Positions 1,030-63,277 of a stretch of DNA of 64,000 bases are shown piece by piece. Positions within the stretch are counted from its first letter, which is position 1. Every line of letters begins with the position of its first letter. Under the pieces are notes generated by a model, which searched no databases, was not told the DNA's origin, and worked only from the letters and a program-made list of their open reading frames with translations. Where the stretch lies: positions 2,401,501-2,465,500 of the forward strand of contig NZ_JAWXYB010000018.1 in assembly GCF_033842475.1 (NCBI RefSeq). The letters run 5' to 3'. The position numbers were made by a program, and so were the translations under genes. This DNA comes from Acidiphilium acidophilum (lineage in GTDB: Bacteria; Pseudomonadota; Alphaproteobacteria; Acetobacterales; Acetobacteraceae).

Positions 1030-1147
1030 ACTTCTTTTTGTGAACAAAAAGAAGCAAAAAAACTTTATTAATCTTGGCCGATATCGTTAAAAGCGCCCGT
1101 GCCTCAACTCATAGAAGTTTTTTGCTTCTTTTTTACAAAAAAGAAGC
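1030..1147. repeat. Bimodular inverted-hairpin element, copy 1
   Basis: Left hairpin 1031-1054 (11-bp stem beginning CTTCTTTTTGT) followed by CAAAAAAACTT; right hairpin 1125-1146 (CTTCTTTTTT stem) preceded by AAGTTTTTTG. The two halves are inverted relative to each other around a core containing GCCCGTGCC. It lies between the convergent Wza-type gene and the DUF1244 gene, 23 and 28 bp from their stop codons. Each hairpin has a run of A or T beside it, so it could end transcription in both directions. Confidence 0.9.
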
Positions 1148-1175
1148 CCTTTCTCCCCTTTCCTTATCTTACCTT

Positions 1176-1478
1176 TCAGGAATGGCCACCCTTGGCAAAC
1201 GCCTCCTGCTGCGCGGGCGATGCCGCCTTCTGATGCAGGGCCTGCCACTCCTTGTAGGGCATCCCATACACGATTTCGCGGGCCTCCGGGTCGGACATCG
1301 CCACGCCCTGCGCGTCGGCGGCTTCGCGATACCAGCGCGAAAGGCAATTGCGGCAAAATCCCGCCAAATTCATCAGATCGATGTTCTGCACGTCGCTCCG
1401 CTCGCGCAGATGCGCGACCAAAGTGCGGAATGCCGCCGCTTCGAGTTCGGTGCGCTGCGCGTCATTTATCTCTGTCAT
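1176..1478 (-). CDS. DUF1244 family protein
   Basis: 100 aa, cytosolic, no signal or membrane segment. It matches the small alphaproteobacterial DUF1244 family in length and in the conserved MNLAGFCRNCLSRWY segment, whose two cysteines (C-x2-C) could bind a metal. The family's function is not known. The start at 1478 (MTEINDAQ) was preferred over an in-frame extension to 1577 because family members begin at this point and the extension has no typical coding character. It is divergent from pyruvate kinase. Confidence 0.85.
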   Translation of the reverse strand: MTEINDAQRTELEAAAFRTLVAHLRERSDVQNIDLMNLAGFCRNCLSRWYREAADAQGVAMSDPEAREIVYGMPYKEWQALHQKAASPAQQEAFAKGGHS

Positions 1479-1588
1479 GTCGTTTGCGTCCACTTCCTCT
1501 CCGGCGCGACCACGCAGCCGCGCCGCACTTGTTTGCGATGCCGGATTGTAGCACGACGCCCCCGCACACGCGATCAAAGGATACGGAC

Positions 1589-3013
1589 ATGGCCTCTCGG
1601 CTCAGGCGTCACCGGCGCACCAAGATCATCGCCACTCTCGGTCCGGCAAGCGCCACCCCGGACATGCTGGCACAATTGTTCGAGGCGGGGGCCGACGTGT
1701 TCCGCCTCAATTTCAGCCACGGCACGCATGAGGATCACCTCAGCCGTATCGAGATGATCCGCGCCCTGGAACGCAAGTTCGATCGCCCGATCGGCATTCT
1801 GGCCGACATTCAGGGACCGAAGCTGCGGGTCGGCCAGTTTCGCGGCGGCCGCATCCAGTTGCAGACCGGCGCCGAATTCCAGCTCGACCTCAATCCCGCC
1901 CCCGGCGACACCCGCCGCGTCAACCTGCCGCACCCCGAGATCATCGAAGCCGCCAGCATCGGCGCCACACTCCTGCTCGACGACGGCAAACTCCGTCTGC
2001 GGGTCCTGCGCAAGCGCGACGATCATTTGCTGACCGAAATCGTCAACGGCGGCCCGCTCTCGGACCGCAAGGGCGTCAACGTGCCGGACGTCGTCCTGCC
2101 GATCCCCGCCCTGACCAGAAAAGACCGGATCGATCTCGCCTTCGCCCTCGAACACGGGGTCGAATACATCGGCCTGTCCTTCGTCCAGCGCGCCGAAGAC
2201 GTGCTCGAAGCAAGGGAAATCGCCGCCGGCCGCGCCCTGATCATGACCAAGATGGAAAAACCCCAGGCGCTCGACAATCTCGACGCGATCATGGACGCTT
2301 CCGACGCCGTCATGGTCGCCCGTGGCGACCTCGGCGTCGAACTCCCGCCCGAGGAAGTGCCGATCGCCCAGAAGCGCATCATCCGCGCCGCCCAGTCGCG
2401 CGGCCTGCCCGTCGTGGTCGCAACCCAGATGCTCGAAAGCATGATCTCGGCACCCGCCCCCACGCGTGCCGAAGCTTCCGACGTCGCAACGGCAGTGTTC
2501 GACGGCGCGGATGCCGTGATGCTCTCCGCCGAAAGCGCCGCCGGCCAATACCCCCGCGAGGCGGTCAACATGATGGACCGCATCATCGCCCGGGTCGAAC
2601 GCGACGAGGACTGGCGGCGCGGCATCGATGCCAAACGCCCCGCCCCCGAGGCGTCATCCGCCGATGCCATCGCCCAGGCCGCCGATCAGGTCGCCCGCAC
2701 CATCGGCGCCAGCGCGATCGTCGCCTTCACCAATTCCGGTGCCAGCGCGTTGCGGGTCGCCCGCGAGCGCCCGAACTGCCCGGTGATCGGCCTGACCCCC
2801 TCGATCGACACCGCCCGGCGCATGGCGGTGGTCTGGGGTGTCCATGCCCTGGTCACCGACGAGGTGTTCTCGATGAGCGAAGCGGTCAACCTCTCGGCAA
2901 AACTCGCGCGCCAGGAAGGTTTCGTGCAGGCGGGCGAGGAAATCGTGGTCGTCGCCGGCGTGCCGTTCGGCCAGAGCGGCTCGACCAACGCGCTGCGGGT
3001 GGCAAAAGTATAG
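1589..3013 (+). CDS. pyk: Pyruvate kinase
   Basis: 474 aa, the normal length. It converts phosphoenolpyruvate and ADP to pyruvate and ATP in the last step of glycolysis. Visible motifs are RRTKIIATLGPAS at the N-terminus, NFSHG, the catalytic-lysine region MTKMEKPQAL, and VARGDLGVELPPEEVP, followed by the C-terminal domain. The ATG at 1589 is preceded by AAAGG at good spacing. Reading frames extending further upstream overlap the divergent DUF1244 gene and were rejected. Enolase, the preceding glycolytic step, is about 8 kb away and not co-transcribed. Confidence 0.97.
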   Translation: MASRLRRHRRTKIIATLGPASATPDMLAQLFEAGADVFRLNFSHGTHEDHLSRIEMIRALERKFDRPIGILADIQGPKLRVGQFRGGRIQLQTGAEFQLDLNPAPGDTRRVNLPHPEIIEAASIGATLLLDDGKLRLRVLRKRDDHLLTEIVNGGPLSDRKGVNVPDVVLPIPALTRKDRIDLAFALEHGVEYIGLSFVQRAEDVLEAREIAAGRALIMTKMEKPQALDNLDAIMDASDAVMVARGDLGVELPPEEVPIAQKRIIRAAQSRGLPVVVATQMLESMISAPAPTRAEASDVATAVFDGADAVMLSAESAAGQYPREAVNMMDRIIARVERDEDWRRGIDAKRPAPEASSADAIAQAADQVARTIGASAIVAFTNSGASALRVARERPNCPVIGLTPSIDTARRMAVVWGVHALVTDEVFSMSEAVNLSAKLARQEGFVQAGEEIVVVAGVPFGQSGSTNALRVAKV

Positions 3014-3089
3014 GGCGCCGCCAGCGCGCTGCTTGCATGAGCGTGTCGGCAGCGCCACAATGGCGCACCAATAAATTGAGGACACGCCA

Positions 3090-3401: not shown

Positions 3402-3447
3402 AGCCAATATTTTACTTTACTTCTAGGCAGTTCCCCGACTATGTGAA

Positions 3448-3473
3448 GACGCTCGGGCGCCAGCCCGGGCGTC
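3448..3473 (+). terminator. GC-rich hairpin after the EthD-like gene
   Basis: GACGCTCGGGC and GCCCGGGCGTC pair over 11 bp (one G-U) around a 4-base loop, 46 bp after the EthD-like stop and 24 bp before the next start. No T run follows directly, so termination efficiency is uncertain; it could also act in the 5' leader of the next gene. Confidence 0.4.
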
Positions 3474-3497
3474 GGTCCCTGTTTCTGAGGATGTTCC

Positions 3498-4796: not shown

Positions 4797-4815
4797 CAGA
4801 GCCATGATACCGAAA

Positions 4816-5904
4816 TCAGTGAAGAATGATTTCCACGCGGCGGTTCTGCGGCTCGCGCACACCCGGGCCGGTCGGAACCAGCAGATGGGTCTCGCCGAAG
4901 CCCTTGATCACGATGTCGCTCTTCGGCACGCCGTCGGTCACCAGCTGGGCGGCGACGTTGTCGGCACGGCGATAGGAGAGCTTCATGTTGTAGCCCGGGC
5001 TGCCCGACGTATCGGTGTAGCCGTTCACGTTCAGGCTGGTCACATGGGTCGTCTGCGAAGCCTGCGCGGCCTCGGCAACGATCTGCGTGGCGCGCGGCGT
5101 CAGATCGGCCTTGTTCCAGTTGAAGAACACCAGATAGGTCCGGGCCGGCGCAGGCGCCGGAGCGGCAACTGGGGTCGGTGCCGGAGCCGGCGCTGCGGGC
5201 GGCATCGGCGGGAACAGCTCGTAGCTCAAGCCCACCAGAACCATATTGTTGGAATCGCGGCCAACCTTGAAGGTCGCGGGATGGCCATCCTCGATCGCCT
5301 TGTAATGCTGCGTGCCGATGGTCGACATGTAGCGATATTGCACCTGCGCCGCGAGCCCAGGCGCGCCCGGGATCGGAAACGACATGCCGACGATGCCCTG
5401 ATAGGCGAATGAGCCCGGTGTTCCGTTAATGTAGCTGCCGGTGCCGGGGATCTCGACATTGCGCCAGTCGAGGAACTGATACCCGACGCCCGCGCCGATG
5501 AACGGGTAAAGGTAAGGAATACCGATGTCGAAATCGTACAGCCCGTTGACCATCGCGCCGAACTTCTTCTCGTTGCCGCTGGCGACGAACTGGTTGGGGC
5601 CGACATCGAGCTTCTTGACTTGGTTATTAAAGTAATCGCCTTCGAGTTCAACCCGGAAACCATTTCCGAACCCGTAGCCGATCGAGGCCTCGCCGGTAAA
5701 TCCGTTGCTGAACAAGGCCTTGCCACCGAGATTGGTGCTGACACCATTGATCGCGTAGCTTTCGACCTTGCGGCTGTTCATCACGTTGTAGCCGAGCCCG
5801 GCGCTCACATAGGGGCCGGTCACCGGCTGCGCCTTCGCAGCGATGGGCAACAGCGCAGGGGCTGCAATAAAGCTTGCAACCAGAAGTGTTGAGCGGATTT
5901 TCAT
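4816..5904 (-). CDS. OmpA-family outer membrane protein (paralogue 1)
   Basis: 362 aa: signal peptide ending at KAQ (residues 1-24), an eight-stranded OmpA-type beta-barrel (about 25-215), a short Pro/Ala linker (PAPAPTPVAAPAPAPA), and a C-terminal OmpA peptidoglycan-binding domain (about 240-362) with NVNGYTDTSGSPGYN and REPQNRRVEI. It anchors the outer membrane to peptidoglycan. The ATG at 5904 has a strong GGAG ribosome site. The linker and OmpA domain are nearly identical in DNA to the neighbouring paralogue, whereas the barrels differ. Confidence 0.93.
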   Translation of the reverse strand: MKIRSTLLVASFIAAPALLPIAAKAQPVTGPYVSAGLGYNVMNSRKVESYAINGVSTNLGGKALFSNGFTGEASIGYGFGNGFRVELEGDYFNNQVKKLDVGPNQFVASGNEKKFGAMVNGLYDFDIGIPYLYPFIGAGVGYQFLDWRNVEIPGTGSYINGTPGSFAYQGIVGMSFPIPGAPGLAAQVQYRYMSTIGTQHYKAIEDGHPATFKVGRDSNNMVLVGLSYELFPPMPPAAPAPAPTPVAAPAPAPARTYLVFFNWNKADLTPRATQIVAEAAQASQTTHVTSLNVNGYTDTSGSPGYNMKLSYRRADNVAAQLVTDGVPKSDIVIKGFGETHLLVPTGPGVREPQNRRVEIILH

Positions 5905-6140: not shown

Positions 6141-6198
6141 CAGAGGCTTCATGCAACGCGGCGCTTGCGCTCCGCGTCAGATCGAAGACACGCCGAAA

Positions 6199-7290
6199 TC
6201 AGTGAAGAATGATTTCCACGCGGCGGTTCTGCGGCTCGCGCACACCCGGGCCGGTCGGAACCAGCAGATGGGTCTCGCCGAAGCCCTTGATCACGATGTC
6301 GCTCTTCGGCACGCCGTCGGTCACCAGCTGGGCGGCAACGTTGTCGGCACGGCGATAGGAGAGCTTCATGTTGTAGCCCGGGCTGCCCGACGTGTCGGTG
6401 TAGCCGTTCACATTCAGGCTGGTCACATGGGTCGTCTGCGAAGCCTGCGCGGCCTCGGCAACGATCTGCGTGGCACGCGGCGTCAGATCAGCCTTGTTCC
6501 AGTTGAAGAACACCAGATAGGTCCGGGCCGGCGCAGGAGCGGGAGCGGCAACCGGGGTCGGTGCCGGAGCAGGCGGCGGCGGCGGCGCGGGCGGGAACAG
6601 CTCGTAACGTGCGCCAAGCAGAATCTCGTGATTCCCCGAATGACCGACATTCACGACAGTCCCATAATCGTTATACTTACGATCATGCGTCAGTTCAGTG
6701 TACTGATACTGCGCGGTCAGCGCGAGACCCGGAACTTCAGGAACGTTATAGGCAACACCGGCCCCGACATCGAACGCAAAGCTGCCATAGGTACCGCCGA
6801 TCTGGTCGTCCGGACCCGGCGGCAGGCTGACATGCTGGAACTTCTGCCACATGTAACCGACACCGCCACCGACGAACGGAACGAAGTTGGTGCCGGTCGG
6901 AATGTCGTAATACCCGTTCAGCAACATGCCATAGGTGTTCACGCCACCATGCACACGCGTGCCGCCGTAAATCGCGCTATCGGCCTTGCGGGTGCTGTTG
7001 CGGAAATAATTACCATCGAGCTCGACCCGGAAGCCATTTCCGAACCCGTAGCCGACGCCGACCTGACCAGCCACATCTGGGCGGAACACCAGGCTGCCGT
7101 TGTTACCGGTGAATGCGGGTGCCACCGAATATTTCTGGCTCTGCATGATGCTGGTGCCGAGGCCCAGATCAACATACGGGCCGGTCACGGGCGCCGGGCC
7201 ACCGGTCGCCATCTGCGCATGCGCCAACGGCGCTGCCGCAACGATCGCAGCGCCACAGGTCGCCGCGAAAAGTATTGAGCGATATTTCAT
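6199..7290 (-). CDS. OmpA-family outer membrane protein (paralogue 2)
   Basis: 363 aa with the same plan as its neighbour: signal peptide ending AHAQ, beta-barrel starting VTGPYVDLGLG, Pro/Ala linker, and an OmpA domain whose last 120 or so residues are identical to those of paralogue 1. The barrel has different loops (for example SAIYGGTRVHGG), so surface exposure probably differs while the peptidoglycan anchor is shared. The tandem arrangement, each gene with its own terminator, implies duplication followed by barrel divergence or by conversion of the 3' half. Confidence 0.93.
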   Translation of the reverse strand: MKYRSILFAATCGAAIVAAAPLAHAQMATGGPAPVTGPYVDLGLGTSIMQSQKYSVAPAFTGNNGSLVFRPDVAGQVGVGYGFGNGFRVELDGNYFRNSTRKADSAIYGGTRVHGGVNTYGMLLNGYYDIPTGTNFVPFVGGGVGYMWQKFQHVSLPPGPDDQIGGTYGSFAFDVGAGVAYNVPEVPGLALTAQYQYTELTHDRKYNDYGTVVNVGHSGNHEILLGARYELFPPAPPPPPAPAPTPVAAPAPAPARTYLVFFNWNKADLTPRATQIVAEAAQASQTTHVTSLNVNGYTDTSGSPGYNMKLSYRRADNVAAQLVTDGVPKSDIVIKGFGETHLLVPTGPGVREPQNRRVEIILH

Positions 7291-10878: not shown

Positions 10879-10880
10879 TC

Positions 10881-15273: not shown

Positions 15274-17346
15274 ATGCGACGCGCTCACGCCATCAAAACC
15301 GGCCTCATCGGTCTGGCCGCCCTGTCACTGAGCGGTCCCGCCCTCGCCGCCGGTCTCATCCGCGCCCCCGCCGTGCCGCAGCCCACCGCCCCCGGCGATC
15401 TGGTCGGCATCGTCCTCGAAAACACCCTCACCCGTGCCGAGCCGCCGCGCTACATCACGTTCGGCACCGCCTTCGCTCCGGGGCAACTCCCCCAGGGCGA
15501 GGGCATCGCGGCGATCGTCGGCGGCAGGACCGAACCCGCCCAGATCGACGTCAAAAACCGCTACCCGGACGGTTCGGCCCTGTTCGGCATCGTCACCCTG
15601 CGCACCCCGTCGATCGCCAGCGGTGCCGATGCCGCCGTCATGCTCCGCAAGGCCGCCCTGACCCCCGGCGCCATCGCCATCCTCCCCGCCCTGCAGAAAC
15701 ACGACATCACCATCACGCTCGCCCTGACCAACCCCGGCATGCCGACCAGCTATGTCACCGTCGATGCCGCCAAACTCCTCGCCAGCGCCCGGTCCGCCGA
15801 CCGGACGAGCCCATGGCTCACCGGCGACCTCGTCTCCGAAACCCGCGTCTCGCAACATATCCGCGGCTCGCTCCGCCTGGTGCTGGACATCCGCGCCTAC
15901 GCCAGCGGCACGATCGCCGCCGATGTGCAACTCGACAACGACATCGCGATGAGCCCGAAGGGGGGTGCCGAAACCTACGGCATCACGATCGCCCAGAACG
16001 GCAAACCGGTCTTCGCGGTGCCCCGCATCCACCAATTCCAGTATCAGGACTGGCACACCATCATCCGCTCCGGGGGCCGGGTGCCGATCAACGTGGTCCA
16101 CGACATCGCCGCAATGGAACGCACCGGCATCATCCCCGCCTACGATCTCGGCATCGGCATCCCCCGCGCCGACCTCCTCCGCGAACTCAAGGACGTCAGC
16201 GCCCCCGGCTGGGATGCCCCGCTCGCGGTCAATGGCGTCACCCAATACATGCCGATGGTCGGTGGCCGTGGCAGTATCGGCCCGACCACCGCCGCCAACG
16301 CGGTCTGGCTGATCACCCAGAATCCGGTCGCCGCCGAATACGCCATCGGTCAGGCGGATGCCTCAGGCGCAGTCCCCTGGCATTTCGTCGACGAAAAAAC
16401 CGGCGCTTTCGTCACCACCGCCGATTACCCCAATCTCTGGACCGACGGTCGCGGCGGCCCGCATTCCTACACCACCGGCCTCACCCAGCAGGTCGACCCC
16501 AAAACCGGCTGGCACCCCGATGTCGCCCACGAACCCGACCTCGCCTTCATCCCCTATCTCCTCACCGGCCGGCGCTACTATCTCGACCAGCAGAACGCCG
16601 AGGCCGATTACTCCGAAGTCGGCCAATGGCCCGCACCGCAGGCGCGCAACGAAGGCGAAGGCATCATCGTCGGCCCCGGCGAACAGGTCCGCGGCGCTGC
16701 CTGGAGCCTGCGCGAAGTCGCCGACGCCGCCTATATCGACCCCGACGGTTCACCGATGCGCCATTATTTCCAGACCATGATCGCCAACAACATGGCCTAT
16801 CTGAAACGCAACATCCCCGCCTGGACCAAAAAGCAGGGCCAGCCCTATGGTTACATCGTCGGCACCTACGGCAGCGGCACCGTCGCCATGGCGCCCTGGC
16901 AGCAGGATTACTTCGCGACCACCATGGCCACCATGGTGCGCGAGCACGTGCATGGGGCCAAAGCCGTAATGCTCTGGGAAAACCACTTCCTCGCCGGCAG
17001 CGTCCTGACCAACACGCCCGGCTACAACCGCCGCAACGGCATCGCCTACAATCTCTTCATCGAAAATCCGAAGACCAAACAGCCCGTCACCACCTGGGCC
17101 GCCCTCGATCAGGCCACCCGCGAGGGCGGCCAATCCAACGGCACCGGCTGGGCTCATAGCAACGGCGACTATGGAATGACCCGCATGGCCGCCCTCGCCA
17201 GCGTCTTCAACGCAACCGGTGCCCCCACCGCCCTGCAAGGCTACCAATGGGTGATCCATAGCGGCGCGCCCTACACCAACACCGCCGGCCTCCAATCGAC
17301 CCCGCAATTCTGGATCGTGCCGCTGAGCGGAAGCCAAAAGAAGTAA
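15274..17346 (+). CDS. Large secreted protein, possible polysaccharide-active enzyme
   Basis: 690 aa. A Sec signal peptide (TGLIGLAALSLSGPALA) leads into an N-terminal beta-rich region (residues 30-200; RYITFGTAFAPGQLP and NRYPDGSALFGIVTL resemble the RIFT-type beta domain of exo-acting polysaccharide lyases). A helical region rich in Trp, Tyr and His follows (residues 280-680; SLREVADAAYID, PAWTKKQGQPYGYIVGTYG), compatible with an alpha/alpha barrel. No catalytic motif was identified with certainty, so the enzyme role is tentative. It stands alone, followed 3 bp after its stop by a bimodular repeat. Confidence 0.6.
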   Translation: MRRAHAIKTGLIGLAALSLSGPALAAGLIRAPAVPQPTAPGDLVGIVLENTLTRAEPPRYITFGTAFAPGQLPQGEGIAAIVGGRTEPAQIDVKNRYPDGSALFGIVTLRTPSIASGADAAVMLRKAALTPGAIAILPALQKHDITITLALTNPGMPTSYVTVDAAKLLASARSADRTSPWLTGDLVSETRVSQHIRGSLRLVLDIRAYASGTIAADVQLDNDIAMSPKGGAETYGITIAQNGKPVFAVPRIHQFQYQDWHTIIRSGGRVPINVVHDIAAMERTGIIPAYDLGIGIPRADLLRELKDVSAPGWDAPLAVNGVTQYMPMVGGRGSIGPTTAANAVWLITQNPVAAEYAIGQADASGAVPWHFVDEKTGAFVTTADYPNLWTDGRGGPHSYTTGLTQQVDPKTGWHPDVAHEPDLAFIPYLLTGRRYYLDQQNAEADYSEVGQWPAPQARNEGEGIIVGPGEQVRGAAWSLREVADAAYIDPDGSPMRHYFQTMIANNMAYLKRNIPAWTKKQGQPYGYIVGTYGSGTVAMAPWQQDYFATTMATMVREHVHGAKAVMLWENHFLAGSVLTNTPGYNRRNGIAYNLFIENPKTKQPVTTWAALDQATREGGQSNGTGWAHSNGDYGMTRMAALASVFNATGAPTALQGYQWVIHSGAPYTNTAGLQSTPQFWIVPLSGSQKK

Positions 17347-17349
17347 AGG

Positions 17350-17467
17350 ACTTCTTTTTTTGCAAAAAAAGAAGCAAAAAAACTCTTGTTTATCCTGGCT
17401 CAAGCCTTTCAACCGCCCGTAGCCCAGATCAAAAAAGTTTTTTGCTTCTTTTTTACAAAAAAGAAGT
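17350..17467. repeat. Bimodular inverted-hairpin element, copy 2
   Basis: Left hairpin 17351-17374 (11-bp stem, loop GC), right hairpin 17445-17466, inverted to each other, with CCTGG and GCCCGTAGCCCAG in the core. It fits almost exactly between the stop codons of the secreted protein (3 bp away) and of the convergent S53 peptidase (16 bp away). Confidence 0.92.
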
Positions 17468-17483
17468 CCTCCCTTCCTTTACG

Positions 17484-19034
17484 TCAAGCCACCGGCGTCG
17501 AAGCCGCCGCCTTGAGCGCCGAGAACAATGTCCCGCCCTTCATCACCCCCAGCCCGGTGCAGGCATCCCATCCCGGCCCTGCGCTATACCCGAGCGTCGA
17601 ACCCGCCGGAATATTATTACCCTGGGTGATATCCCGAAACGCCGCCTCATGCGCATAAAGCGCCGGGTTGACGAACCCGAGCCGGCTGCCCCGCGCCGCG
17701 TTCACCAGCGCGAAAAACCCGGCCCATAACGGTGCCACCGCGCTCGTCCCCCCCACCGCGAAGGTCTGGCCATCCACCGTCACCTGATACCCGGTATTCG
17801 GGTCGGCATCCGCCGCCACATCCGGCACCCCGCGCCCGCTCCCGCCGGTGCTGGCATTCACCGGCAGCTTCACCCCGGCCTGAAAGGCGGGTACCGGAAA
17901 CACCGTCGAAATCCCGCCACCCCCACCGCTGGTCCCATTGTTCCACACCGATTCGGCGGTAATCGTCCCCCCCGAAACCGTAATCGCGGTCCCGCCACAG
18001 CCCACAACATGCGGGCTGGATGCCGGAAAATCGACATGCACCGCCCCATCGCTCAACCCGTCGGTCGCAAGGTTATCGCCCGAAGCCACCGTCACGGTCA
18101 CGCCCGCCATCGCCGCATCCTGCAATGCCGAGTTCAACGAATTGCGCCCCTGCGTCGAATAGCTCGACTCGGGCCCGCCCCAGCTGATCGACATCACGGA
18201 TGGCTTGTTGGTGGTATCGGTCGCCGCCGCAGTCACCGCATCGGTAAACCCGGCATCGGTATTCGGCGTGAAATACACCGCCAGCTTCGCCCCCGGCGCA
18301 ATGCCCCCGGCCACCTGAATATCGAGCCCGACCTCGCCATCCGCCGAATCCGGCGTCGTGGGCGCATTGCTCCCGCCATCAACACTCACCGCAACCACCG
18401 TCGGCGGCTTCAACCCCATCGCCGCGAAGGCGGTCGTGATATCGCTCTCATGATACCCGCCCCCCAGCTCGATAATCGCAATGCACTCTCCCGCCCCGTC
18501 CGGCGAGGTCGGAATCCCGTAAAACCCCCCAACCTGGTTCGGCAGATACGTCGCCGAAGCCGCCTGCGCGCTCTTGATCAGCCGCTGCAACCGCGGCTGC
18601 GCCACCGGCCTGGTATCCAGCCCGAGCACCGATTCCACGATCGCCGCAATATCCGATCGCAGCTTCAACGCCCCGGTATACCCGCGAAATTTCGCCTGAT
18701 CGCCGGAAAACCAGTGCAGATCAACCTTGAACGCCGCCTGCATCGCCGAAGCACTGCCCGCCAGCCGCACCAGACGACGGCGCGCATCCGCCTCGATCAC
18801 CTCCAGCCCATGATCGGCGGCAAACGCCTTGATCGTCTCGATATCGTCATGATGCCGCTCCGCCCGATCCGCCAGCACCGCCTCATGCGAGACGAAACGG
18901 CCCGAAACCGGTCGCGGCTTGACATAGACACTAACCTCCACGCGCTCGCCATCCGCCAGCTTCTCGTGGCGATGGGCACGCGCAGGCATCTCGTGGCGGC
19001 TATCCGGAAACTCGACATAATGCTGTTCGGCCAT
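17484..19034 (-). CDS. S53 family serine-carboxyl peptidase (kumamolisin/sedolisin type)
   Basis: 516 aa. An N-terminal activation domain (residues 1-145) is followed by the catalytic domain. The Glu-x3-Asp pair is visible in DGEVGLDIQ (E234, D238), the oxyanion Asp in VASGD (D320) and the nucleophile in GGTSAVAPLW (S431). Calcium-site residues are expected in the C-terminal RDITQGN and GWDACTGLG segments. S53 enzymes work at acid pH outside the cell or in the periplasm. No Sec signal peptide is visible at the N-terminus, as in some kumamolisins. Faces a large secreted protein gene. Confidence 0.93.
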   Translation of the reverse strand: MAEQHYVEFPDSRHEMPARAHRHEKLADGERVEVSVYVKPRPVSGRFVSHEAVLADRAERHHDDIETIKAFAADHGLEVIEADARRRLVRLAGSASAMQAAFKVDLHWFSGDQAKFRGYTGALKLRSDIAAIVESVLGLDTRPVAQPRLQRLIKSAQAASATYLPNQVGGFYGIPTSPDGAGECIAIIELGGGYHESDITTAFAAMGLKPPTVVAVSVDGGSNAPTTPDSADGEVGLDIQVAGGIAPGAKLAVYFTPNTDAGFTDAVTAAATDTTNKPSVMSISWGGPESSYSTQGRNSLNSALQDAAMAGVTVTVASGDNLATDGLSDGAVHVDFPASSPHVVGCGGTAITVSGGTITAESVWNNGTSGGGGGISTVFPVPAFQAGVKLPVNASTGGSGRGVPDVAADADPNTGYQVTVDGQTFAVGGTSAVAPLWAGFFALVNAARGSRLGFVNPALYAHEAAFRDITQGNNIPAGSTLGYSAGPGWDACTGLGVMKGGTLFSALKAAASTPVA

Positions 19035-19123: not shown

Positions 19124-19594
19124 CTATAAATAACGACGCATTAGCCGCCGTTCGGTATCGCGAAACCCGAGGCTCTCATAAAGCCGGTAGGCCCGCTCAT
19201 TATGTTTCTCGACCTCCAGCATCATCACCCGCACCCCGCGCTCCCGCGCCGCCGCAACCGCCGCCTCCACCGCCACCCGCCCCAACCCGCGCCCGCGCAC
19301 CTCCGGCACCAGATAGATATCATCGATGAACGCATCCGTGCCGCCATGCTCCGGACTGTAGCCGAGCGACAACACGAAATACCCCACAACCCCGCCCCGC
19401 CACCGCAACAAATAGGTCGGCGCCAACGCCGCATCCCCCACACCATGCACACTCGCCGCCGTCGCCGCCTCCGCCGCCGCATCCATCGGATGCCCATCCT
19501 CGACATGAAACGCCCGCGCCAACGCCAACAGCACCGGAATATCATCCGGTCGCGCGAGCGTCGCCGTCAACGGGGACAAAGCGGGCGCGGTCAT
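19124..19594 (-). CDS. GNAT family N-acetyltransferase
   Basis: 156 aa. The acetyl-CoA binding motif is IYLVPEVRGRGLGRVAVEAAV, preceded by a DDI strand and followed by LEVEKHNERAYRLYESLGF, all typical of GNAT enzymes. The substrate is unknown. The start at 19594 (MTAPALSP) was chosen; the frame stays open upstream only because it runs into the bimodular repeat, giving a spurious LLFYKKE extension. Confidence 0.88.
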   Translation of the reverse strand: MTAPALSPLTATLARPDDIPVLLALARAFHVEDGHPMDAAAEAATAASVHGVGDAALAPTYLLRWRGGVVGYFVLSLGYSPEHGGTDAFIDDIYLVPEVRGRGLGRVAVEAAVAAARERGVRVMMLEVEKHNERAYRLYESLGFRDTERRLMRRYL

Positions 19595-19615: not shown

Positions 19616-19735
19616 TACTTCTTTTTTGTAAAAAAGAAGCAAAAAACTTTTGTTTTCTGGGTCTCTGACGTTTTCACGGGCGGTGATCCAGATTAAAAAA
19701 GTTTTTTTGCTTCTTTTTGTTCACAACAAGAAGTC
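19616..19735. repeat. Bimodular inverted-hairpin element, copy 3
   Basis: Left hairpin 19618-19639 and right hairpin 19710-19733, the latter with one mismatch (ACAACAAG in place of ACAAAAAG), so it is slightly decayed. The core has CTGGG and ATCCAG. It lies 26 bp after the sppA stop, before the acetyltransferase start, both on the minus strand. Confidence 0.9.
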
Positions 19736-19761: not shown

Positions 19762-20580
19762 TCACCGCATCCGCGCACTCATCGTCTCCGCCTCGATCGC
19801 ATTGAGCAGCGCCGCACCCGCATCCCGTCCGATCAACCGCATCAGGCTGAATTTCTTCTTCGGCCCGATGAAATCCGGCTTCGCCCGCTCTCCTGCCCGC
19901 TCGGTGATCACGCCGCGCACATCGCCGAACCCATCGATCAGCCCGAGATCCTTCGCCTTGTCGCCCAGCATGTACGACCCATCGAAAATCGCCGCCTCAT
20001 GCCCCTCGATCGCCGCCCCCCGCCGCGTCCGCACCCAGTCCTTGAACGAATTATGAATATCGTCGAGCAATTCCCGATTGAACTGGGCGTCCTCCTCGCG
20101 CTCCGGCGAAAACGGATCGTTGCGCAGCTTGTTCTCCCCCGCCGTGATCACCCGCCGTTCGATCCCGTAGCGCCGGATCAACTGATGCACCCCGAACCCG
20201 CCGCCGATCACCCCGATCGAGCCCACGATGCTCATCCGGTTCGCCAGAATCTCATCCGCCGCACAGGCGATCCAATACCCGCCCGACGCGCCGACATCGC
20301 CGATGATCGCAACCACCCGCACCCCGGTCTCCGCTGCCTTGCGCCGGATGAATCGCCCGATCAGATCCGATTGCACCGGCGAACCACCGGGGCTTTCGAT
20401 CGCAAGGATCAGCAGGTTTTCCCCCGCCTTGGCCGCATCGAATCCCCGGGTCAGCGGTGCCGCAAACCGGTCCAGATTGACCGCTCCCTCCCGCGCCGCG
20501 ATCACGCCGGACATGCGGATCACCGGCACAGTCCGCGGCGTCCAGGGGAGTTTCCTGCGCAGCGTCGCCAGATCCATCAT
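19762..20580 (-). CDS. sppA: S49 family signal peptide peptidase
   Basis: 272 aa, the short (SohB/archaeal-like) SppA type. The nucleophile lies in GDVGASGGYWIACAADEI and the general-base Lys in GENKLRND, with the oxyanion region at ESPGGSP. No clear N-terminal membrane segment is present. SppA cleaves leftover signal peptides in the membrane. The ATG-ATG start at 20580 overlaps the stop of DUF1489 by 4 bp; a longer frame to 20766 was rejected. Confidence 0.9.
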   Translation of the reverse strand: MMDLATLRRKLPWTPRTVPVIRMSGVIAAREGAVNLDRFAAPLTRGFDAAKAGENLLILAIESPGGSPVQSDLIGRFIRRKAAETGVRVVAIIGDVGASGGYWIACAADEILANRMSIVGSIGVIGGGFGVHQLIRRYGIERRVITAGENKLRNDPFSPEREEDAQFNRELLDDIHNSFKDWVRTRRGAAIEGHEAAIFDGSYMLGDKAKDLGLIDGFGDVRGVITERAGERAKPDFIGPKKKFSLMRLIGRDAGAALLNAIEAETMSARMR

Positions 20581-26656: not shown

Positions 26657-26743
26657 GAACAACTCCCTGTTACCGCCCGATCATTTCGCGACGGCACCGG
26701 CCTGTCAAGCGTCCGGGTGGGGCAAGAAGGAAGATCAGGAAAG

Positions 26744-26858
26744 TACTTCTTTTTTGTAAAAAAGAAGCAAAAAACTTTTTGAGTCTGGGACTGCAGTTGA
26801 AATCGCCCGTGGCCCAGAATAACAGAAGTTTTTTGCTTCTTTTTTACAAAAAAGAAGC
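26744..26858. repeat. Bimodular inverted-hairpin element, copy 4
   Basis: Left hairpin 26746-26767, right hairpin 26836-26857. The core shows the inner inverted pair clearly: GTCTGGGACTG on the left and GCCCGTGGCCCAGA on the right. It starts 14 bp after the corA stop (reading on the minus strand) and precedes the SPFH gene. Confidence 0.92.
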
Positions 26859-26872
26859 CTTCCCTCCCTCCC

Positions 26873-27901
26873 CTACAACCACCCCTTCTTCCGAAACCAG
26901 AACAGAGGCGCCACCGCCGTGATCAGGATCAGCCCGAGTCCGTAAGGATAGCCGAACCGCCAATGCAGTTCCGGCATATGCACGAAGTTCATCCCGTAGA
27001 TCCCGGCAATCAGCGTCGGCGGAATCCCGATCACCGAAACGATCGTCAGCACCTTCATCAGGTCGCTCTGCGCGATATTGATCAGTCCCAGCGTCGCATC
27101 GAGCACGAACTGGATCTTGTCGGTCAGATGGGTGATGAACTCGTTGAGCGAGGCGACATCCTGCGTCACCGTCTTCAGCCGCGCCGTCATCGTCTCAGGC
27201 ACCCAGGTCGCGACCGAGCCCATATACGGCACGATCCGCCCGATACCGAGCTGCGAATCCCGCACCAGCGAGACCGTGTTGTAAAGCTGTCCCAGCGTCG
27301 AGACCGTCTCCCGCAACTCGCCTTCCTGCTGGCGCCGCGTGGCCCCGGCATGGCGGCCGTCCGGCGAGAGCTTGAGATGGAATATCCGGTGCGACAACCG
27401 ATCGATCTGCCCGCGCGCCTGCTCCAGCGCATCGGCCTGACGATCGATCAGCGCTTCGAGCAGCCCGACCAGAATATCGGCACTCGCCGGTTCGGCGGTC
27501 GCATCCAGCCGTTCCCAGAACCCCTGAAACGCCCGGCTCGGCGCAAACCTGATCGTCACCAGACGATCGGGGGCGAGCACAATGCCAAGCGGCGCCGGCA
27601 TCACCCCGTCATTCCCGGAATACATCATCGGCATCGACATGGTCAGAACCGCCCCGCCCGGCGGCGTCGTGACCGACAACCGGCTCGACGTCTCGATCTC
27701 CATTAAATCAGCCTCGTTCGGCACCGCAAGCCCGGTCGCCGCCGTCACCAGCGCGACATCCGCATCCGCCGGATTGACGAGGTCGATCCACACCGCCTCG
27801 CCGAGACGAGCCCGCGCCGCCTCATCATCGAGCCTGCTCACACCGGCATCGCCCCGAACGATGGACCGGATCATGCACTGGGTCGGAAGGCCGGAGTTCA
27901 T
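26873..27901 (-). CDS. corA: CorA-family divalent metal ion transporter
   Basis: 342 aa (a start at 27874 is also possible). A large cytosolic N-terminal domain is followed by two C-terminal membrane helices. The pore signature YGMNF and the MPEL loop are intact, followed by LILITAVAPLFWFRKKGWL at the C-terminus with basic residues on the inside. It is expected to carry Mg2+ and possibly Co2+ or Ni2+ across the inner membrane. Confidence 0.93.
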   Translation of the reverse strand: MNSGLPTQCMIRSIVRGDAGVSRLDDEAARARLGEAVWIDLVNPADADVALVTAATGLAVPNEADLMEIETSSRLSVTTPPGGAVLTMSMPMMYSGNDGVMPAPLGIVLAPDRLVTIRFAPSRAFQGFWERLDATAEPASADILVGLLEALIDRQADALEQARGQIDRLSHRIFHLKLSPDGRHAGATRRQQEGELRETVSTLGQLYNTVSLVRDSQLGIGRIVPYMGSVATWVPETMTARLKTVTQDVASLNEFITHLTDKIQFVLDATLGLINIAQSDLMKVLTIVSVIGIPPTLIAGIYGMNFVHMPELHWRFGYPYGLGLILITAVAPLFWFRKKGWL

Positions 27902-30023: not shown

Positions 30024-31133
30024 TTAGTGGCCGTGCGCCTTGCAGATCGACCCGTTCGCCGCCGGGCCGACACAAATCGCCGGCCACGTCGTGTACCCCG
30101 ATTTGATCACGGTCGCAGCAAGATTCTTCTTCGTCACCACGATCGGCGTCAGCAGCACCGAAGGCACGTCGATCATCTTGTTGTTGGTCTTGCCGTTCAG
30201 CAACCCGGCAGGCGGGCTCGAATGCGTCGCCACCGCCACAGCCAGTTCCGCCGCCGCCGCCGCCTCATCCGGCACGTATTTGAACACGGTCATCGACTGC
30301 AGACCCTCCAGAATGAAGGTCAACCCGCCATTGGTCGCATCCTGCCCGGTCACCGGCACCTTGCCCGCCAGCCCCACCGCCTGCAAAGCCCGGATCGCCC
30401 CCGAAGCCGTGCCGTCGTTCGCCGCCAGCACCGCATTGACATTATTATGCAACCGGGTCAGCGCCTGCTGGCTCTCCTCGAACGCATTCTGCGGGCTCCA
30501 ATCCGGCGTCATCACCGTATAGGCCAGATGCAGCTTGCCCGATTTGAACAGCGGCCCCAGCACATCCATGGCGCCCTTGCGGAAATCGAACGCATTCGGA
30601 TCGGTCGGCGCGCCATTGATCATCATCACCTGACCACCGGCCTTGGTGTGCGCCGCAATATACTTGCCCTGCAATTTGCCGACCTGCACATTGTCGAACG
30701 ACACGTAATAATCCGGCTTGGAATCCTGGATCAGCCGGTCATACGAAATCACCTTCACATGATTCCGCGCCGCATAATTCACGATCGCGGCCCCCGCCTT
30801 GCCATCGACCGGATCGACCACAAGCACATCCGCCCCGTTCGAAATCGCCGACTGCGCCTGATTGAGCTGGGTATCCGGGCTGGAATTCGCGTTGCTGACA
30901 ATCAGCTTGGCATTGGGGTCCGCCGCCTTGGCCATCTTGATGAACCACGGCCGATCGACCTGCTCATAACGCGGCGAGGAATTCTCCGGCAACAGAAACG
31001 CAATCGTCGTCTTCTTGGTGCTGATCTTCACCGGCTTCGGCTTGCTGATCGTGTCGGCATGCGCGACCGACAGGCCAAGCCCGGCCACCGCCAGAACGCC
31101 GCCCGCAATGAGACTGAGATAAGAGATTTTCAT
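30024..31133 (-). CDS. Sugar ABC transporter substrate-binding protein (XylF type)
   Basis: 369 aa. A signal peptide (LSLIAGGVLAVAGLGLSVAHA) is followed by a two-lobed periplasmic binding fold of the ribose/xylose class: TIAFLLPENSSPRYEQVDRP, NGADVLVVDPVDG, VKVISYDRLI, AVLAANDGTASGAIRAL and VPVTGQDA are all close to XylF. D-xylose is a plausible ligand by resemblance. The ATG at 31133 follows GGGGAAA. First gene of the operon. Confidence 0.92.
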   Translation of the reverse strand: MKISYLSLIAGGVLAVAGLGLSVAHADTISKPKPVKISTKKTTIAFLLPENSSPRYEQVDRPWFIKMAKAADPNAKLIVSNANSSPDTQLNQAQSAISNGADVLVVDPVDGKAGAAIVNYAARNHVKVISYDRLIQDSKPDYYVSFDNVQVGKLQGKYIAAHTKAGGQVMMINGAPTDPNAFDFRKGAMDVLGPLFKSGKLHLAYTVMTPDWSPQNAFEESQQALTRLHNNVNAVLAANDGTASGAIRALQAVGLAGKVPVTGQDATNGGLTFILEGLQSMTVFKYVPDEAAAAAELAVAVATHSSPPAGLLNGKTNNKMIDVPSVLLTPIVVTKKNLAATVIKSGYTTWPAICVGPAANGSICKAHGH

Positions 31134-31312
31134 GGTGTTTCCCCTGGTTTGACGCCAAAGCCGTGCACCGGTTGCGCGGCGCACCAAATTAATTTGACCC
31201 TTGTAGTAAATCGGTCGTTAACGTCAACCCCGGTTCATTGTCAAGCAATAAGATGAGGGTGCGGAACGATCACGGCGTGAGGCGCGGGAAACGAAGGAAC
31301 AGCGAAAACAAG

Positions 31313-31433
31313 CACTTCTTTTTGTGAACAAAAAGAAGCAAAAAAACTTTGATTCCTTCAGGCCCGTGCCGGTTCCAACGCCCGCGACCCGGATCAGAAG
31401 AAGTTTTTTGCTTCTTTTTTACAAAAAAGAAGC
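31313..31433. repeat. Bimodular inverted-hairpin element, copy 5
   Basis: Left hairpin 31315-31338 (same GTGAAC-centred loop as copy 1), right hairpin 31411-31432. The core contains GGCCCGTGCC and CGACCCGGATC. It lies 19 bp after the stop of the 82-aa gene, before the sugar-binding protein gene, both on the minus strand. Confidence 0.92.
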
Positions 31434-31452
31434 GCTCCCTCCCCGCCCGGTC

Positions 31453-31701
31453 CTACTGCCGCGTCTCGTCGATCTCCCGCAATTCCCCCGATTGCACACT
31501 CTCCACCGCATTGTGCAAAATCCGCAAAATCGCCTCATCGGGGAGTGACGCGCTCAACACGTTCAGCGCCCCGCCAAGCAGGGCGGACGCCACCGCGATC
31601 GGCGGAATCTTCTGTTCGATCATATGCTTGACCATCCGGTCGATCATCGATCCGGCCTGCATGATCTGCTCTTCGGTCGCAAACTCGTCCATGTCCGTCA
31701 C
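31453..31701 (-). CDS. Small conserved-looking protein of unknown function
   Basis: 82 aa, acidic, helical, without signal or membrane segment; KHMIEQKIPPIAVASALLGGALNVL is an amphipathic stretch. A GTG at 31701 is preferred because AGGAG lies 8 bases upstream; the ATG nine bases further in is too far from it. Family not recognised. Located between a sugar transporter operon and an Atm1-type exporter. Confidence 0.65.
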   Translation of the reverse strand: MTDMDEFATEEQIMQAGSMIDRMVKHMIEQKIPPIAVASALLGGALNVLSASLPDEAILRILHNAVESVQSGELREIDETRQ

Positions 31702-45394: not shown

Positions 45395-45511
45395 CACTTC
45401 TTTTTTGCAAAAAAGAAGCAAAAAACTCTTTTGAATCTAGGCCCGTGCCCTCTCGAACGCCCACGCCCCAGATAACAAAAGTTTTTTACTACTTTTTTTC
45501 AAAAAAGTAGC
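45395..45511. repeat. Bimodular inverted-hairpin element, copy 6
   Basis: Left hairpin 45397-45418; right hairpin 45489-45510 in which the outer stem has changed on both sides (CTAC pairs with GTAG where other copies have CTTC and GAAG). This compensating change keeps the stem. The core has GGCCCGTGCCC and ACGCCCCAG. Located between the convergent sulfite dehydrogenase and alternative oxidase operons. Confidence 0.9.
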
Positions 45512-45549
45512 CCTTCCTTACCTTGCCCTGCCCTGCCGCAAGGAAAAGA

Positions 45550-59528: not shown

Positions 59529-59539
59529 AGGCGATTATC
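59529..59539 (+). repeat. Right target-site duplication of the IS4-family element
   Basis: AGGCGATTATC, the same 11 bp as at 58150-58160. Confidence 0.75.
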
Positions 59540-60544: not shown

Positions 60545-60554
60545 GCGAGCGCGC

Positions 60555-61709
60555 CTAACCGGAAGCAGCGCGCAGCGCCCGGTCGAGGTCGGCATAGAGA
60601 TCCTCGACATGCTCGATCCCGACCGAGAGGCGCAGCAGATCGTCCGGGCAGGGCGTGCCTTCACCCTCGATCGAGGCGCGATGTTCGATCAGGCTTTCGA
60701 CCCCGCCGAGCGAGGTCGCCCGGTGCCAGACCCGCACGGCGGCGGCGGTGGCGATGGCATGGGCGGCACCGCCGCGCACCCGGATTGACAGCATCGAGCC
60801 GAAGCCGTCGCGCATCTGCGCTGCCGCGATCGCGTGGCCCGGATGATCCGGCAGGCCGGGATACAGGACATGGGCGACATGATCATGCGCGGCGAGACGC
60901 GCGGCCAGGGCGGCGGCATTGGCGGCCTGGGCGGCGGCGCGCAGGAACAGGGTGCGCATGCCGCGCATCAGCAGGAACGCCTCGAACGGCCCGAGGATCG
61001 CGCCGCCCAACCGGCGCGCGGTGACGATGCGCTGCCAGTCGGCATCGTCGCGCGCACCCGCGACCACACCGGCCACGACATCGGAATGGCCGTTGAGAAT
61101 CTTGGTCGCGGCGTGCATCACGAAATCCGCGCCCAGCGCGAGGGGCTGGAGATGATAGGGTGACGCGACCGTGGCATCGACCGCGAGCCGCGCACCTGCC
61201 GCGTGGGCGATGCCGGCGATCGCGGCGATGTCCGTGATGGTCCAGAGCGGATTGCCGGGGGTTTCGATCCAGATCAGGCGGGTGCGACCGGGCAGAACGG
61301 CGGCGGCGACGGCAGCGGGATCGTCCATCGCGACGAAATCGACCGCGATGCCCCGGCGGGGTAGCTCGGTCATCAGCCAATGGCGGAGCGCCCAGTACAT
61401 GATCCGTGGCGCGAGCACGTGATCCCCCGCGTTCAGCACGGCGAAGACCGCGATCGCGGCGGCCATGCCCGAGCCGAACAACAGCGCGCCGGCGGGGGCA
61501 GCCTCCAGCATCGCGAGCACCGCCTCGGCCTCGCGCACCGTCGCGTTGTCCGGCCTGCCATAGACGAAGCCCGAACTATATTGATTGTCGGGATCGCGGA
61601 TGAAGGTGGTCGAGACGTGGATCGGCGCGATCACCGCCCGCGTCGCCTGATCGATCCGCCCCATCGCCTGGGCGACCCGCGTGGCGGGATGAAGATCGGT
61701 CTCGTTCAT
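60555..61709 (-). CDS. Cys/Met metabolism PLP-dependent enzyme (cystathionine gamma-synthase family)
   Basis: 384 aa. Family features: TRAVIAPIHVSTTFIRD, YGRPDNATVREAE, LLFGSGMAAAIAV, WIETPGNPL, VDATVASPYHLQPLALGADFVMHAATKILNGHSD (PLP Lys in HAATK, shown here across separate strands), and SLGGVESLIEHRAS. It is of the transsulfuration type and could act as cystathionine gamma-synthase, gamma-lyase or O-acylhomoserine sulfhydrylase; the residues visible do not decide. The ATG at 61709 was chosen. Convergent with the methyltransferase. Confidence 0.9.
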   Translation of the reverse strand: MNETDLHPATRVAQAMGRIDQATRAVIAPIHVSTTFIRDPDNQYSSGFVYGRPDNATVREAEAVLAMLEAAPAGALLFGSGMAAAIAVFAVLNAGDHVLAPRIMYWALRHWLMTELPRRGIAVDFVAMDDPAAVAAAVLPGRTRLIWIETPGNPLWTITDIAAIAGIAHAAGARLAVDATVASPYHLQPLALGADFVMHAATKILNGHSDVVAGVVAGARDDADWQRIVTARRLGGAILGPFEAFLLMRGMRTLFLRAAAQAANAAALAARLAAHDHVAHVLYPGLPDHPGHAIAAAQMRDGFGSMLSIRVRGGAAHAIATAAAVRVWHRATSLGGVESLIEHRASIEGEGTPCPDDLLRLSVGIEHVEDLYADLDRALRAASG

Positions 61710-61755
61710 CGTCTGGTATCTCCTGGTACGGGGCGTTTCGAATTTAGGCGCTTGG

Positions 61756-62547
61756 CTATCGCAGTTGGTCCACCCGCAGGCGTTCCCGGCCATCGGTCAG
61801 GCGCGCCATCGCGAAATAGGCCGCGCCGACGGCGGCGATTCCGGTGGCCCCGGCGAGCAGGAACATCAGCAGGATCTGGTATTTCACCGCCTCGATCGGC
61901 GATAGTCCGGCGAGGATCTGGCCGGTCATGATCCCCGGAAGCGTCACGATTCCCGCCGCCGACATCACGTTGATGATCGGCAGGATGCCCCGCCGCACCG
62001 ATGCCCGGATCAGCGGTTTGGTCGCCTCGCGGAACCGCACGCCGAGCGCCAGCTGCGCCTCGATCGCGGCGCGCTCGCGCATCACGCCGGACAACAGCGC
62101 ATCGAGGGAGAGCGACGCGGCGTTGAGTGCGTTGCCCAGCATGATGCCGGCCAGCGGGATCGCATAGCGCGCGGCGTACCAGGGGTGGGGCCGCAGGGCG
62201 GTCGCGAGGGCAAAGGTCGCGGTCACGAAGGTCGCCAGCGCGACCGCCGAAAGCCCGGCGATCTGATTGCCGTAGCGCGCCAGTTTCCGTTCCGGTCGCG
62301 CCGCGACCTCGCGCCCGGCAATTGCCACCATCGCCAGGATCAATCCCAATGTGAGCAGCGGCGTGTCGATCGCGAAGACGAAGCGCAGGATGTAGCCGAC
62401 CAGGGTGAGTTGCACCGCGCAGCGCACCGCCGCGACCAGTACCTGCTTGTGCAGCCGCAACCCGAGCCAGACCGATACCACGGCATCGAGCACCACCAGC
62501 GAGGAGGCGATGATCAGGTCGGTCGGGGTCAGCAGGATCGGGGTCAT
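61756..62547 (-). CDS. fetB: FetB-type ABC exporter permease
   Basis: 263 aa with about six or seven membrane segments. The arginine/histidine-containing loop GLRLHKQVLVAAVRCAVQLTLVG is diagnostic of the YbbM/FetB family, as are AGIMLGNALNAASLSLDAL and GIVTLPGIMTGQILAGLSP. In E. coli FetAB lowers cellular iron under peroxide stress. It overlaps the ATPase gene by 4 bp and is 46 bp upstream of the PLP enzyme gene. Confidence 0.9.
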   Translation of the reverse strand: MTPILLTPTDLIIASSLVVLDAVVSVWLGLRLHKQVLVAAVRCAVQLTLVGYILRFVFAIDTPLLTLGLILAMVAIAGREVAARPERKLARYGNQIAGLSAVALATFVTATFALATALRPHPWYAARYAIPLAGIMLGNALNAASLSLDALLSGVMRERAAIEAQLALGVRFREATKPLIRASVRRGILPIINVMSAAGIVTLPGIMTGQILAGLSPIEAVKYQILLMFLLAGATGIAAVGAAYFAMARLTDGRERLRVDQLR

Positions 62548-63137
62548 TGCGGGGTCAGGGTTCCGGCTTGCAGATGATAGTGCCGCGCCCCCAGACGGGC
62601 AGCCTGATCCATATCGTGCGTCACGATCACCAGCGCGGCACCCGCACGCAGCCGCGCCGACAGGATGGCCTCGACCAGCCTTGTCGCCTGCGGGTCGAGC
62701 GCGCCGGTCGGCTCATCGAGCAGCAGAACCGGTGGATCGTTCAGCAGGGTCCGGATCAGGGCGAGGCGCATCCGCTCGCCGGTGGACAGCCGATGCACCG
62801 GCTGGGCCAGCAAGGCGGCATCCAGCGCCAAATCCGGCATCAACGCCACGGCGCGCGCCCGATCCGGAAAATGCGCCGCTGTGTCGTCATGCCACCAGCC
62901 CGGCTCGGCGGCCAGATAAGCGACACGCCGCCGCCAGTCCGGCGCGGTGAACGCCGCACGCTCCACACCATCCAGCGCGACCGTTCCTTCATGTGGGTCG
63001 AGATCGGCGATCATGCGGAGCAATACCGACTTTCCGGCCCCCGACGGGCCGGTGATCGCCATGGCGTCCCCGGCGCCGAGCGCAAAATCGAACGGGCCAC
63101 CGGCGGCACCTTTCAGGGCCTGGGTGCGGAGTCTCAT
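62544..63137 (-). CDS. fetA: FetA-type ABC exporter ATPase
   Basis: 197 aa. Walker A GPSGAGKS, signature LSTGERM (a variant of LSGGQ, with Thr at the third position), Walker B VLLLDEPTGALD and H-loop VTHDM. Short, as expected for the FetA/YbbL family. The start at 63137 (MRLRTQAL) was chosen; the frame stays open into the bimodular repeat, giving a false N-terminal extension. Coupled to the permease. Confidence 0.9.
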   Translation of the reverse strand: MRLRTQALKGAAGGPFDFALGAGDAMAITGPSGAGKSVLLRMIADLDPHEGTVALDGVERAAFTAPDWRRRVAYLAAEPGWWHDDTAAHFPDRARAVALMPDLALDAALLAQPVHRLSTGERMRLALIRTLLNDPPVLLLDEPTGALDPQATRLVEAILSARLRAGAALVIVTHDMDQAARLGARHYHLQAGTLTPQ

Positions 63138-63156
63138 GAAGGCAGGGGAAGGAAAG

Positions 63157-63277
63157 GATTTCTTTTTTTGTAAAAAAAGAAACAAAAAAACTTCTGGACT
63201 CTGGGACTACGCTGTTGAAACCGACACGGACCCAGGTAAACGAAAGTTTTTTGCTTCTTTTTTACAAAAAAGAAGTC
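63157..63277. repeat. Bimodular inverted-hairpin element, copy 7
   Basis: Left hairpin 63159-63182, in which the outer pair is changed on both sides (TTTC with GAAA where other copies have CTTC with GAAG), so pairing is kept. Right hairpin 63254-63275 is the usual form. The core shows CTCTGGGACTAC and ACGGACCCAGG. It lies 14 bp after the stop of the M20 peptidase gene and before fetA. Confidence 0.92.

Follow-up and report, generated by a model that had tools for sequence, protein, structure and literature searches.

What is a palindromic sequence of some 120 bases doing at seven places in a 64,000-nucleotide stretch of the Acidiphilium acidophilum genome, at most of them just behind a stop codon? 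This stretch, which we call the window (positions 2,401,501 to 2,465,500 of contig NZ_JAWXYB010000018.1, C18 in the following), had received an initial annotation from its letters alone, in which the repeats were considered as mobile or duplicating transcription terminators or mRNA-end structures. Judged by sequence, they form a family of extragenic palindromes that move and have a terminator-like hairpin built in, with about a hundred copies spread over the genome, gains at single sites and a position directly behind stop codons. Our preferred reading, to which we assign a probability of roughly 0.55, is that this mobile non-coding repeat of the Acetobacteraceae, which also occurs on phage contigs, acts as a bidirectional terminator or mRNA-end structure.

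The palindromic unit of about 118 bp is built of three hairpins, two outer ones and a central one of the form A6-stem-T6, in which a left tract of six or seven A pairs with a right tract of six or seven T around a variable core of about 48 nt. Copy 4 of the window may serve as an example: its first outer hairpin, of the 22-nt kind, lies at 26746..26767, the central hairpin, terminator-like on both strands, at 26769..26834, and the second outer hairpin at 26836..26857. The 22–24-nt hairpin of the initial annotation is thus present, but resolves into two kinds, 22 and 24 nt long, of which copies in other genera usually carry one each. The CTGGG/CCCAG core described there is present as well, but it is variable, and imperfect in several copies, such as that at 1029.

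That description lacked the flanks, where, on each side, the strand that runs toward the element carries a purine tract (for copy 4, 26722..26743 on the plus strand, with the pyrimidine tract on the opposite side). The purine share amounts to 88% in the five nucleotides adjoining the hairpin, falls to a background of about 54% within 30–35 nt and shows a weak 5-nt period; the tract often starts immediately 3' of the stop codon. Since it is equally present on the element sides that face gene starts, and since 30 control gene ends without an element contain 52% purines, it goes with the element and not with gene ends. We considered a closing stem formed by the purine and pyrimidine flanks and rejected it, as complementarity within copies is not above that between copies (91 copies; 82 of 200 shuffles were as good). 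For the 50 copies outside this genome, 12 of 200 shuffles were as good, and for the 41 own copies, 173 of 200.

A covariance model built from 17 copies, with five of the seven window copies in its training set, matches the window at exactly seven places, each on both strands (best-strand scores of 97–127 bits, E ≤ 1e-18), and so recovers all copies of the initial annotation, which stand where it had put them. The expectation of many more was borne out likewise. The genome comprises 4.16 Mb in 21 contigs, with 87% of it on C18, and holds at least 106 distinct full copies, obtained by scoring the best 150 of 1131 candidates; all listed ones are on C18. An exact 19-base arm occurs 48 + 42 = 90 times in the genome, again always on C18, while its reversed control does not occur. 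By hand calculation, the chance that none of 106 copies falls on the other contigs is about 6e-7. The average density is one copy per ~34 kb, as against 15 full copies in the 54 kb of C18:3302609-3356682 (L133–L135), where weaker matches lie behind further genes. Solitary arms exist too, at 8 of the 30 loci of the arm search.

Where do these copies lie relative to genes? Gene context was taken from our own gene predictor, seeded with an assumed amino-acid composition, and its predicted starts are uncertain; two other predictors favoured antisense frames and were set aside. The 106 places of the genome divide into 31 between convergent, 58 between codirectional and 14 between divergent genes, two at a locus edge and one inside a predicted open reading frame (ORF). 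The upstream stop is at most 30 nt away in 67 of 89 copies, with a median of 17 nt. Random placement per intergenic base gives 7/61/35 convergent, codirectional and divergent places with 22% within 30 nt, and placement per intergenic region 18/65/20 with 55%. The excess next to stops therefore holds under both null placements, less strongly per region, and convergent sites are enriched about 4-fold over the per-base and 1.7-fold over the per-region expectation. Random positions had been named beforehand as the outcome that would speak against the initial annotation; the positions found are non-random. In other genera, all 26 placed copies, drawn from the best-scoring ones only (nine further loci unparsed, one at an edge), lie within 30 nt of a stop, with a median of 7 nt and none between divergent genes. 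A second set of 11 copies (two Acidiphilium; three short loci left out) has ten near stops and one divergent. A polarity rule was examined and rejected: the own codirectional copies point in gene direction in 38 of 58 cases (p 0.025), but show no relation to the downstream gap (p 0.92), and for 24 copies of other genera the relation to the gap (p 0.046) gave p 0.035 at two of four cut-offs and no significance at the other two.

The structure of the element can be approached through the changes that its copies have undergone. The 4-nt stem bases of the two outer hairpins differ in 29 of 91 copies taken from several genera. Of these 29, 26 pair perfectly within each outer hairpin and two across the long range. 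In 25 copies, the local outer hairpins have 99.4% paired cells, 26 doubly changed cells and a covariation of 0.122 as against 0.050 in shuffled alignments (0 of 500 as high), a signal that rests on three variable pairs. The corresponding values for one long single stem are 94.4%, two cells and 0.033 as against 0.034. The covariation in these alignments supports local outer hairpins, not one long stem; the single long hairpin, which is thermodynamically favoured but lacks covariation, was accordingly discarded as the conserved structure. We think it improbable that the covariation was made by mutation, through template switching between the palindrome arms, and not by structural selection. Perfect palindromes are prone to such templated changes, and the core differs by 10% between two genomes of the same species (three sites); yet this mechanism would template the long stem as well, and that stem is without covariation. 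As for the centre, the core in other genera is a strong hairpin (mean z −3.8; 25 copies, both strands). In 175 of 182 folded transcripts, a stem lies directly against the U-run, a count made without a shuffled control; the base of this stem is AU-rich.

The proposal that the repeat duplicates or moves is supported as well. The element is mobile by the testimony of three sites that are filled in some relatives and empty in others, and of an identical pair in unlike flanks. Copies 2 and 3 of the window are kept in a second genome of the species (G001); relatives at a greater distance that have the adjoining genes lack them. G001 and A. rubrum (G004) have copy 5, which G010, G002 and G012 lack, and the site of copy 4 retains a half copy in A. 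rubrum. Between G004 and G010, seven pairs are shared at comparable sites and one, copy 5, is not. In genus g34, genome G130 has an element directly 3' of a stop codon, where five relatives show a short empty gap and one shows other sequence. Two further sites, E and F, hold an element in G045, G281 and G221; at site E, G130 instead has an overlapping stop/start, TGATG, and at site F, located between hpnD and hpnE by NCBIfam, the same overlap is found in G181. Site E has TGA to either side of the element in G045 and G221, not in G281, and site F has no target-site repeat.

The identical pair is found on viral contig L240, where two copies are identical over the full span bounded by their outer hairpins, both hairpins included, with two further bases agreeing on one side and flanks that are 52% alike. 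This identity in unlike flanks places each end of the copied unit at the edge of an outer hairpin or no more than two bases from it. No target-site duplication was seen at the hairpin borders of this pair. Some copy pairs of the own genome share flank as well (63 of the 106 copies were parsed for this comparison).

Does the element belong to a known class? The Rfam search of the window at gathering scores returned only a tRNA; for copy 4, the only families listed score far under their cut-offs and are mostly of the microRNA hairpin type. In the literature searched, we recognised no paper describing it. The earlier remark that no described family of this layout was known thus stands for Rfam and these papers. 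Repetitive extragenic palindromes (REPs) and the bacterial interspersed mosaic elements (BIMEs) made of them are GTAG- and CGTC-tagged palindromic repeats mobilised by REP-associated tyrosine transposases (RAYTs). The element resembles them in place and symmetry, as these too are extragenic palindromes scattered over the genome, frequently as inverted pairs, that sit between convergent or codirectional genes and close behind stops (PMC3733652, PMC12306157). It differs from them in being a three-hairpin unit of ~118 bp with A6/T6 tracts. Of 106 copies, at most 9 share GTAG at one position, 8 CTAC, 2 CGTC and 3 GACG. The own genome has no match to PF01797, the Y1 transposase family of RAYT and IS200 type, for which 5 of 14 genomes gave control matches. 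By these features, the lack of a Y1 transposase and of a GTAG/CGTC tag at a fixed position, the element is not a REP, and mobilisation by a RAYT was rejected. CGTC repeats are given as missing in Acetobacteraceae by PMC3733652. As no REP-type transposase was found in the genome, a copying enzyme of another kind is pointed to.

Miniature inverted-repeat transposable elements (MITEs) and the ERIC, RUP and Correia-type repeats offer a second comparison, being short, non-coding and present in many copies, with inverted ends and with empty and filled sites. Of the MITE criteria, terminal inverted repeats and recent insertion at new sites are present; what differs here is that the ends are hairpins, the arms are conserved at shared sites and, the mixed picture at site E aside, no target-site duplication is seen at the hairpin ends. 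No parent transposon is known either, no search having been aimed at a transposase flanked by two arms. A bolder reading, which we regard as less likely than not, makes the repeat a transposable terminator of transcription. It would be non-autonomous, and some enzyme would recognise its two hairpin ends and insert it at the stops of chromosomal and phage genes, repeatedly splitting operons and rewiring 3' ends across the family.

The distribution of the repeat is wide within the family and patchy. Within Acidiphilium, 7 of 13 genomes have matches, four of them at least 144–150 and the others 37, 14 and 2 (both strands counted); some of the six genomes without matches are incomplete. A pattern taken from the core likewise finds A. 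rubrum ATCC 35905 and Acidiphilium sp. PA. In the family Acetobacteraceae, the model R1 matches 95 of 299 genomes and 37 of 102 genera, and the model R2, for which 21 copies from other genera were joined with four window copies, 96 of 299 genomes and likewise 37 of 102 genera; a few of these genomes are counted for one match only, close to the E limit of 0.001. A class sample of 385 genomes yielded no confident match in another family: its matches are two members of the Acetobacteraceae and one genome of another family with E 9.7e-4, which is chance level for such a sample. Both family searches and the class search used stricter filters, by which weak matches are lost. Genus g86 (G097, G160, G202, G237, G267) shows two or three matches per genome, perhaps a handful of old, fixed copies, as against at least 12 in many genomes.

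Among plasmid records, the sole match is on A. multivorum pACMV3 (L151, 12325-12451), inside a peptide ATP-binding cassette (ABC) transporter gene cluster, where an annotated hypothetical protein of 48 aa, probably no true gene, overlaps the copy. The INPHARED phage records gave no match. In viral contigs, the arm occurs in 66 stretches, several of them from one and the same contig. The three of the 66 whose flanks were checked for host genes, with one to five proteins each, carry virion genes (portal, major head protein, tail sheath, baseplate), and the elements there lie between codirectional genes.

Such gains at new sites, the presence on phage contigs, the patchy occurrence among Acidiphilium genomes and family genera and the decayed and solitary copies would all be expected of a selfish miniature mobile element without host function, surviving only behind genes, where it is harmless. 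We regard this as unlikely, given how the copies behave at shared sites. At six sites common to A. rubrum and Acidiphilium sp. PA (G010), the arms are 99.3% identical, the core 84.4% and the flanks 83.5%, the latter made up of one pair with 40% and five with 86–97%. A decayed shared pair (L108/L109) is excluded from this sum; with it, the arms are identical at 479 of 492 positions (97.4%). Between genomes of the same species, the values for three sites are 98.6% for the arms, 90.1% for the core and 94.2% for the flanks. The core therefore changes more quickly than the arms in either comparison, and more quickly than most of the flanks, while the arms stay almost identical. Moreover, the position is sharper than harmlessness needs, as seen in the 26 placed copies of other genera.

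The conservation of the arm sequence across genera far exceeds the apparent need of a plain AT hairpin and might instead reflect a signal at the level of DNA, such as an uptake sequence, curvature or a nucleoid-protein site, with the terminator look being secondary. Paired inverted uptake sequences behind genes are a known arrangement, and in Neisseria, paired inverted DNA uptake sequences are used as terminators. In this, Neisseria resembles our case: a repeated word stands in inverted pairs behind genes and can form a terminator. The arm described here is far longer and has a hairpin of its own, and its copies are far fewer, about a hundred as compared with the hundreds to thousands given for uptake sequences in PMC2346458. 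The compensated changes within the hairpins point to pairing of a strand with itself, and we hold a DNA-level signal to be very doubtful.

The preferred reading of the element as a terminator or mRNA-end structure would work as follows. The element would be transcribed as part of the upstream mRNA, at its 3' end or between cistrons. Of its hairpins, the first outer one would fold as soon as it is made, and the A6-stem-U6 hairpin would then form, upon which transcription would pause or end, leaving the upstream mRNA with a closed, exonuclease-resistant 3' end. The inverted-symmetric layout would let it work from either side, as suits convergent genes, and the outer hairpins would mark the ends of the copied unit. 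Copies within operons would stop transcription only partly or in one direction, or would be overridden. Such sites could be explained by a polarity rule, which is unsupported in the own genome. That the pyrimidine tract met by a read-through polymerase might serve Rho is speculation based on its composition. A parallel for the central hairpin is found in the bidirectional intrinsic terminators of low-GC Firmicutes (PMC1590033), AT-rich stem-loops that have a stem flanked by an A-run and a T-run, lie near stops and are fit for both directions; here, by contrast, a single mobile family is repeated, with two extra outer hairpins, in an alphaproteobacterium and a window of 64% GC.

Several observations weigh against this reading. 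The copies at sites E and F split gene pairs that overlap in a relative, with the next start 10–14 nt past the hairpin and an unbroken ORF behind it (at E, 377 aa in both G045 and G221; at F, 412 aa in G045), and 22 of the 58 codirectional copies in the own genome leave at most 40 nt before the next predicted start. The core in the own genome is a weaker hairpin than elsewhere (z −0.85 and −1.23; 85 of 106 copies parsed) and shows no compensatory covariation within Acidiphilium. A simple terminator scanner flagged no central hairpin in the four copies scanned, its loop limit of 8 excluding most cores; its sole flag there was the outer hairpin at 31313-31340. The best fold of the full-length RNA is one long hairpin (seven strands of four copies), which a read-through transcript could form according to these predictions. 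Finally, the conservation of the arms might stem from gene conversion among copies.

The gained copies at E and F, which split overlapping gene pairs and leave the downstream ORF intact, show that the element is no absolute terminator everywhere; there and between phage virion genes, termination would be partial, directional, overridden or absent. It is conceivable, if on the whole doubtful, that the element is read through and acts post-transcriptionally in the manner of REPs and BIMEs, by stabilising the upstream message, tuning translation near the stop or offering an RNase III cut, and is no terminator. Operon-internal copies, including that between hpnD and hpnE and those between virion genes, would fit this, as would the ability of the full-length RNA to fold into a single long hairpin. 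The median stop distances here and in other genera also overlap the range of less than 16 nt within which, according to PMC12306157, translation is lowered by the REPs of E. coli. Against this, the A6/T6 tracts that are conserved on both sides of the core resemble an intrinsic terminator, and the enrichment at convergent sites likewise speaks for an end of transcription.

The seven copies of the window illustrate these placements. As the initial annotation had it, three lie between convergent genes and four behind a minus-strand gene, by our own gene prediction as well, and its finding that six of the seven are close to a stop agrees with the measured 2–26 nt, the copy at 45395 being 77 nt away. 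Copy 1 (1029..1148, plus strand, 126.6 bits), with outer hairpin, A-tract, core, T-tract and outer hairpin in order, has the convergent neighbours 428..1006 (plus) and 1176..1493 (minus). Copy 2 (17349..17468, plus, 117.6 bits) stands between the convergent genes 15274..17346 (plus) and 17484..19034 (minus), with their stops 2 and 15 nt away, and copy 6 (45395..45512, plus, 96.8 bits), which has a compensated change CTAC/GTAG in its 3' hairpin, between convergent genes with stops 77 and 110 nt away. Copy 3 (19616..19735, minus, 124.6 bits) is located 26 nt 3' of the stop of 19762..20580 (minus), an SppA-like gene, and upstream of 19124..19594 (minus). At the place of copy 3, the element-free genome G002 (L110:8270-8600) carries a long palindrome of another kind, GTCATTGCGAGAAGCGAAGCG..., a further repeat for this gene end. 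Copy 4 (26744..26859, plus, 102.5 bits) follows the stop of the CorA-like gene 26873..27901 (minus) at 13 nt, and copy 5 (31313..31434, plus, 122.4 bits) that of 31453..31701 (minus) at 18 nt. Copy 7 (63157..63277, plus, 120.7 bits) lies 14 nt 3' of the stop of 63292..63999 (minus), which is dipeptidase-like, and 19 nt before the predicted start of 62544..63137 (minus), an ABC transporter ATPase. These gene assignments for copies 3, 4 and 7 are NCBIfam matches below the curated cut-offs.

Two other features of the window deserve mention. A block CGATTTACTACAAGGGTCAAATTAATTTGG, in the stretch that precedes the 369-aa gene 30024..31133 (minus strand, window 31120-31470; L109:18230-18500; L110:240-815), is nearly identical in three species and exceeds its surroundings in conservation, which makes it a possible promoter or leader RNA. 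Furthermore, a 300-bp direct repeat at 4810-5109 and 6193-6492, 98% identical, lies at the 3' ends of the adjoining minus-strand genes 4816..5904 and 6199..7212 and looks like gene conversion between tandem paralogues.

Given confirmation, the filled and empty sites would make the function of extragenic palindromes testable site by site. If the preferred reading of a mobile terminator or mRNA-end structure is true, the mRNA ends in many Acetobacteraceae would partly be set by a mobile repeat that lands behind stop codons and occurs on phage contigs as well, and the evolution of genome repeats would be linked to operon structure.

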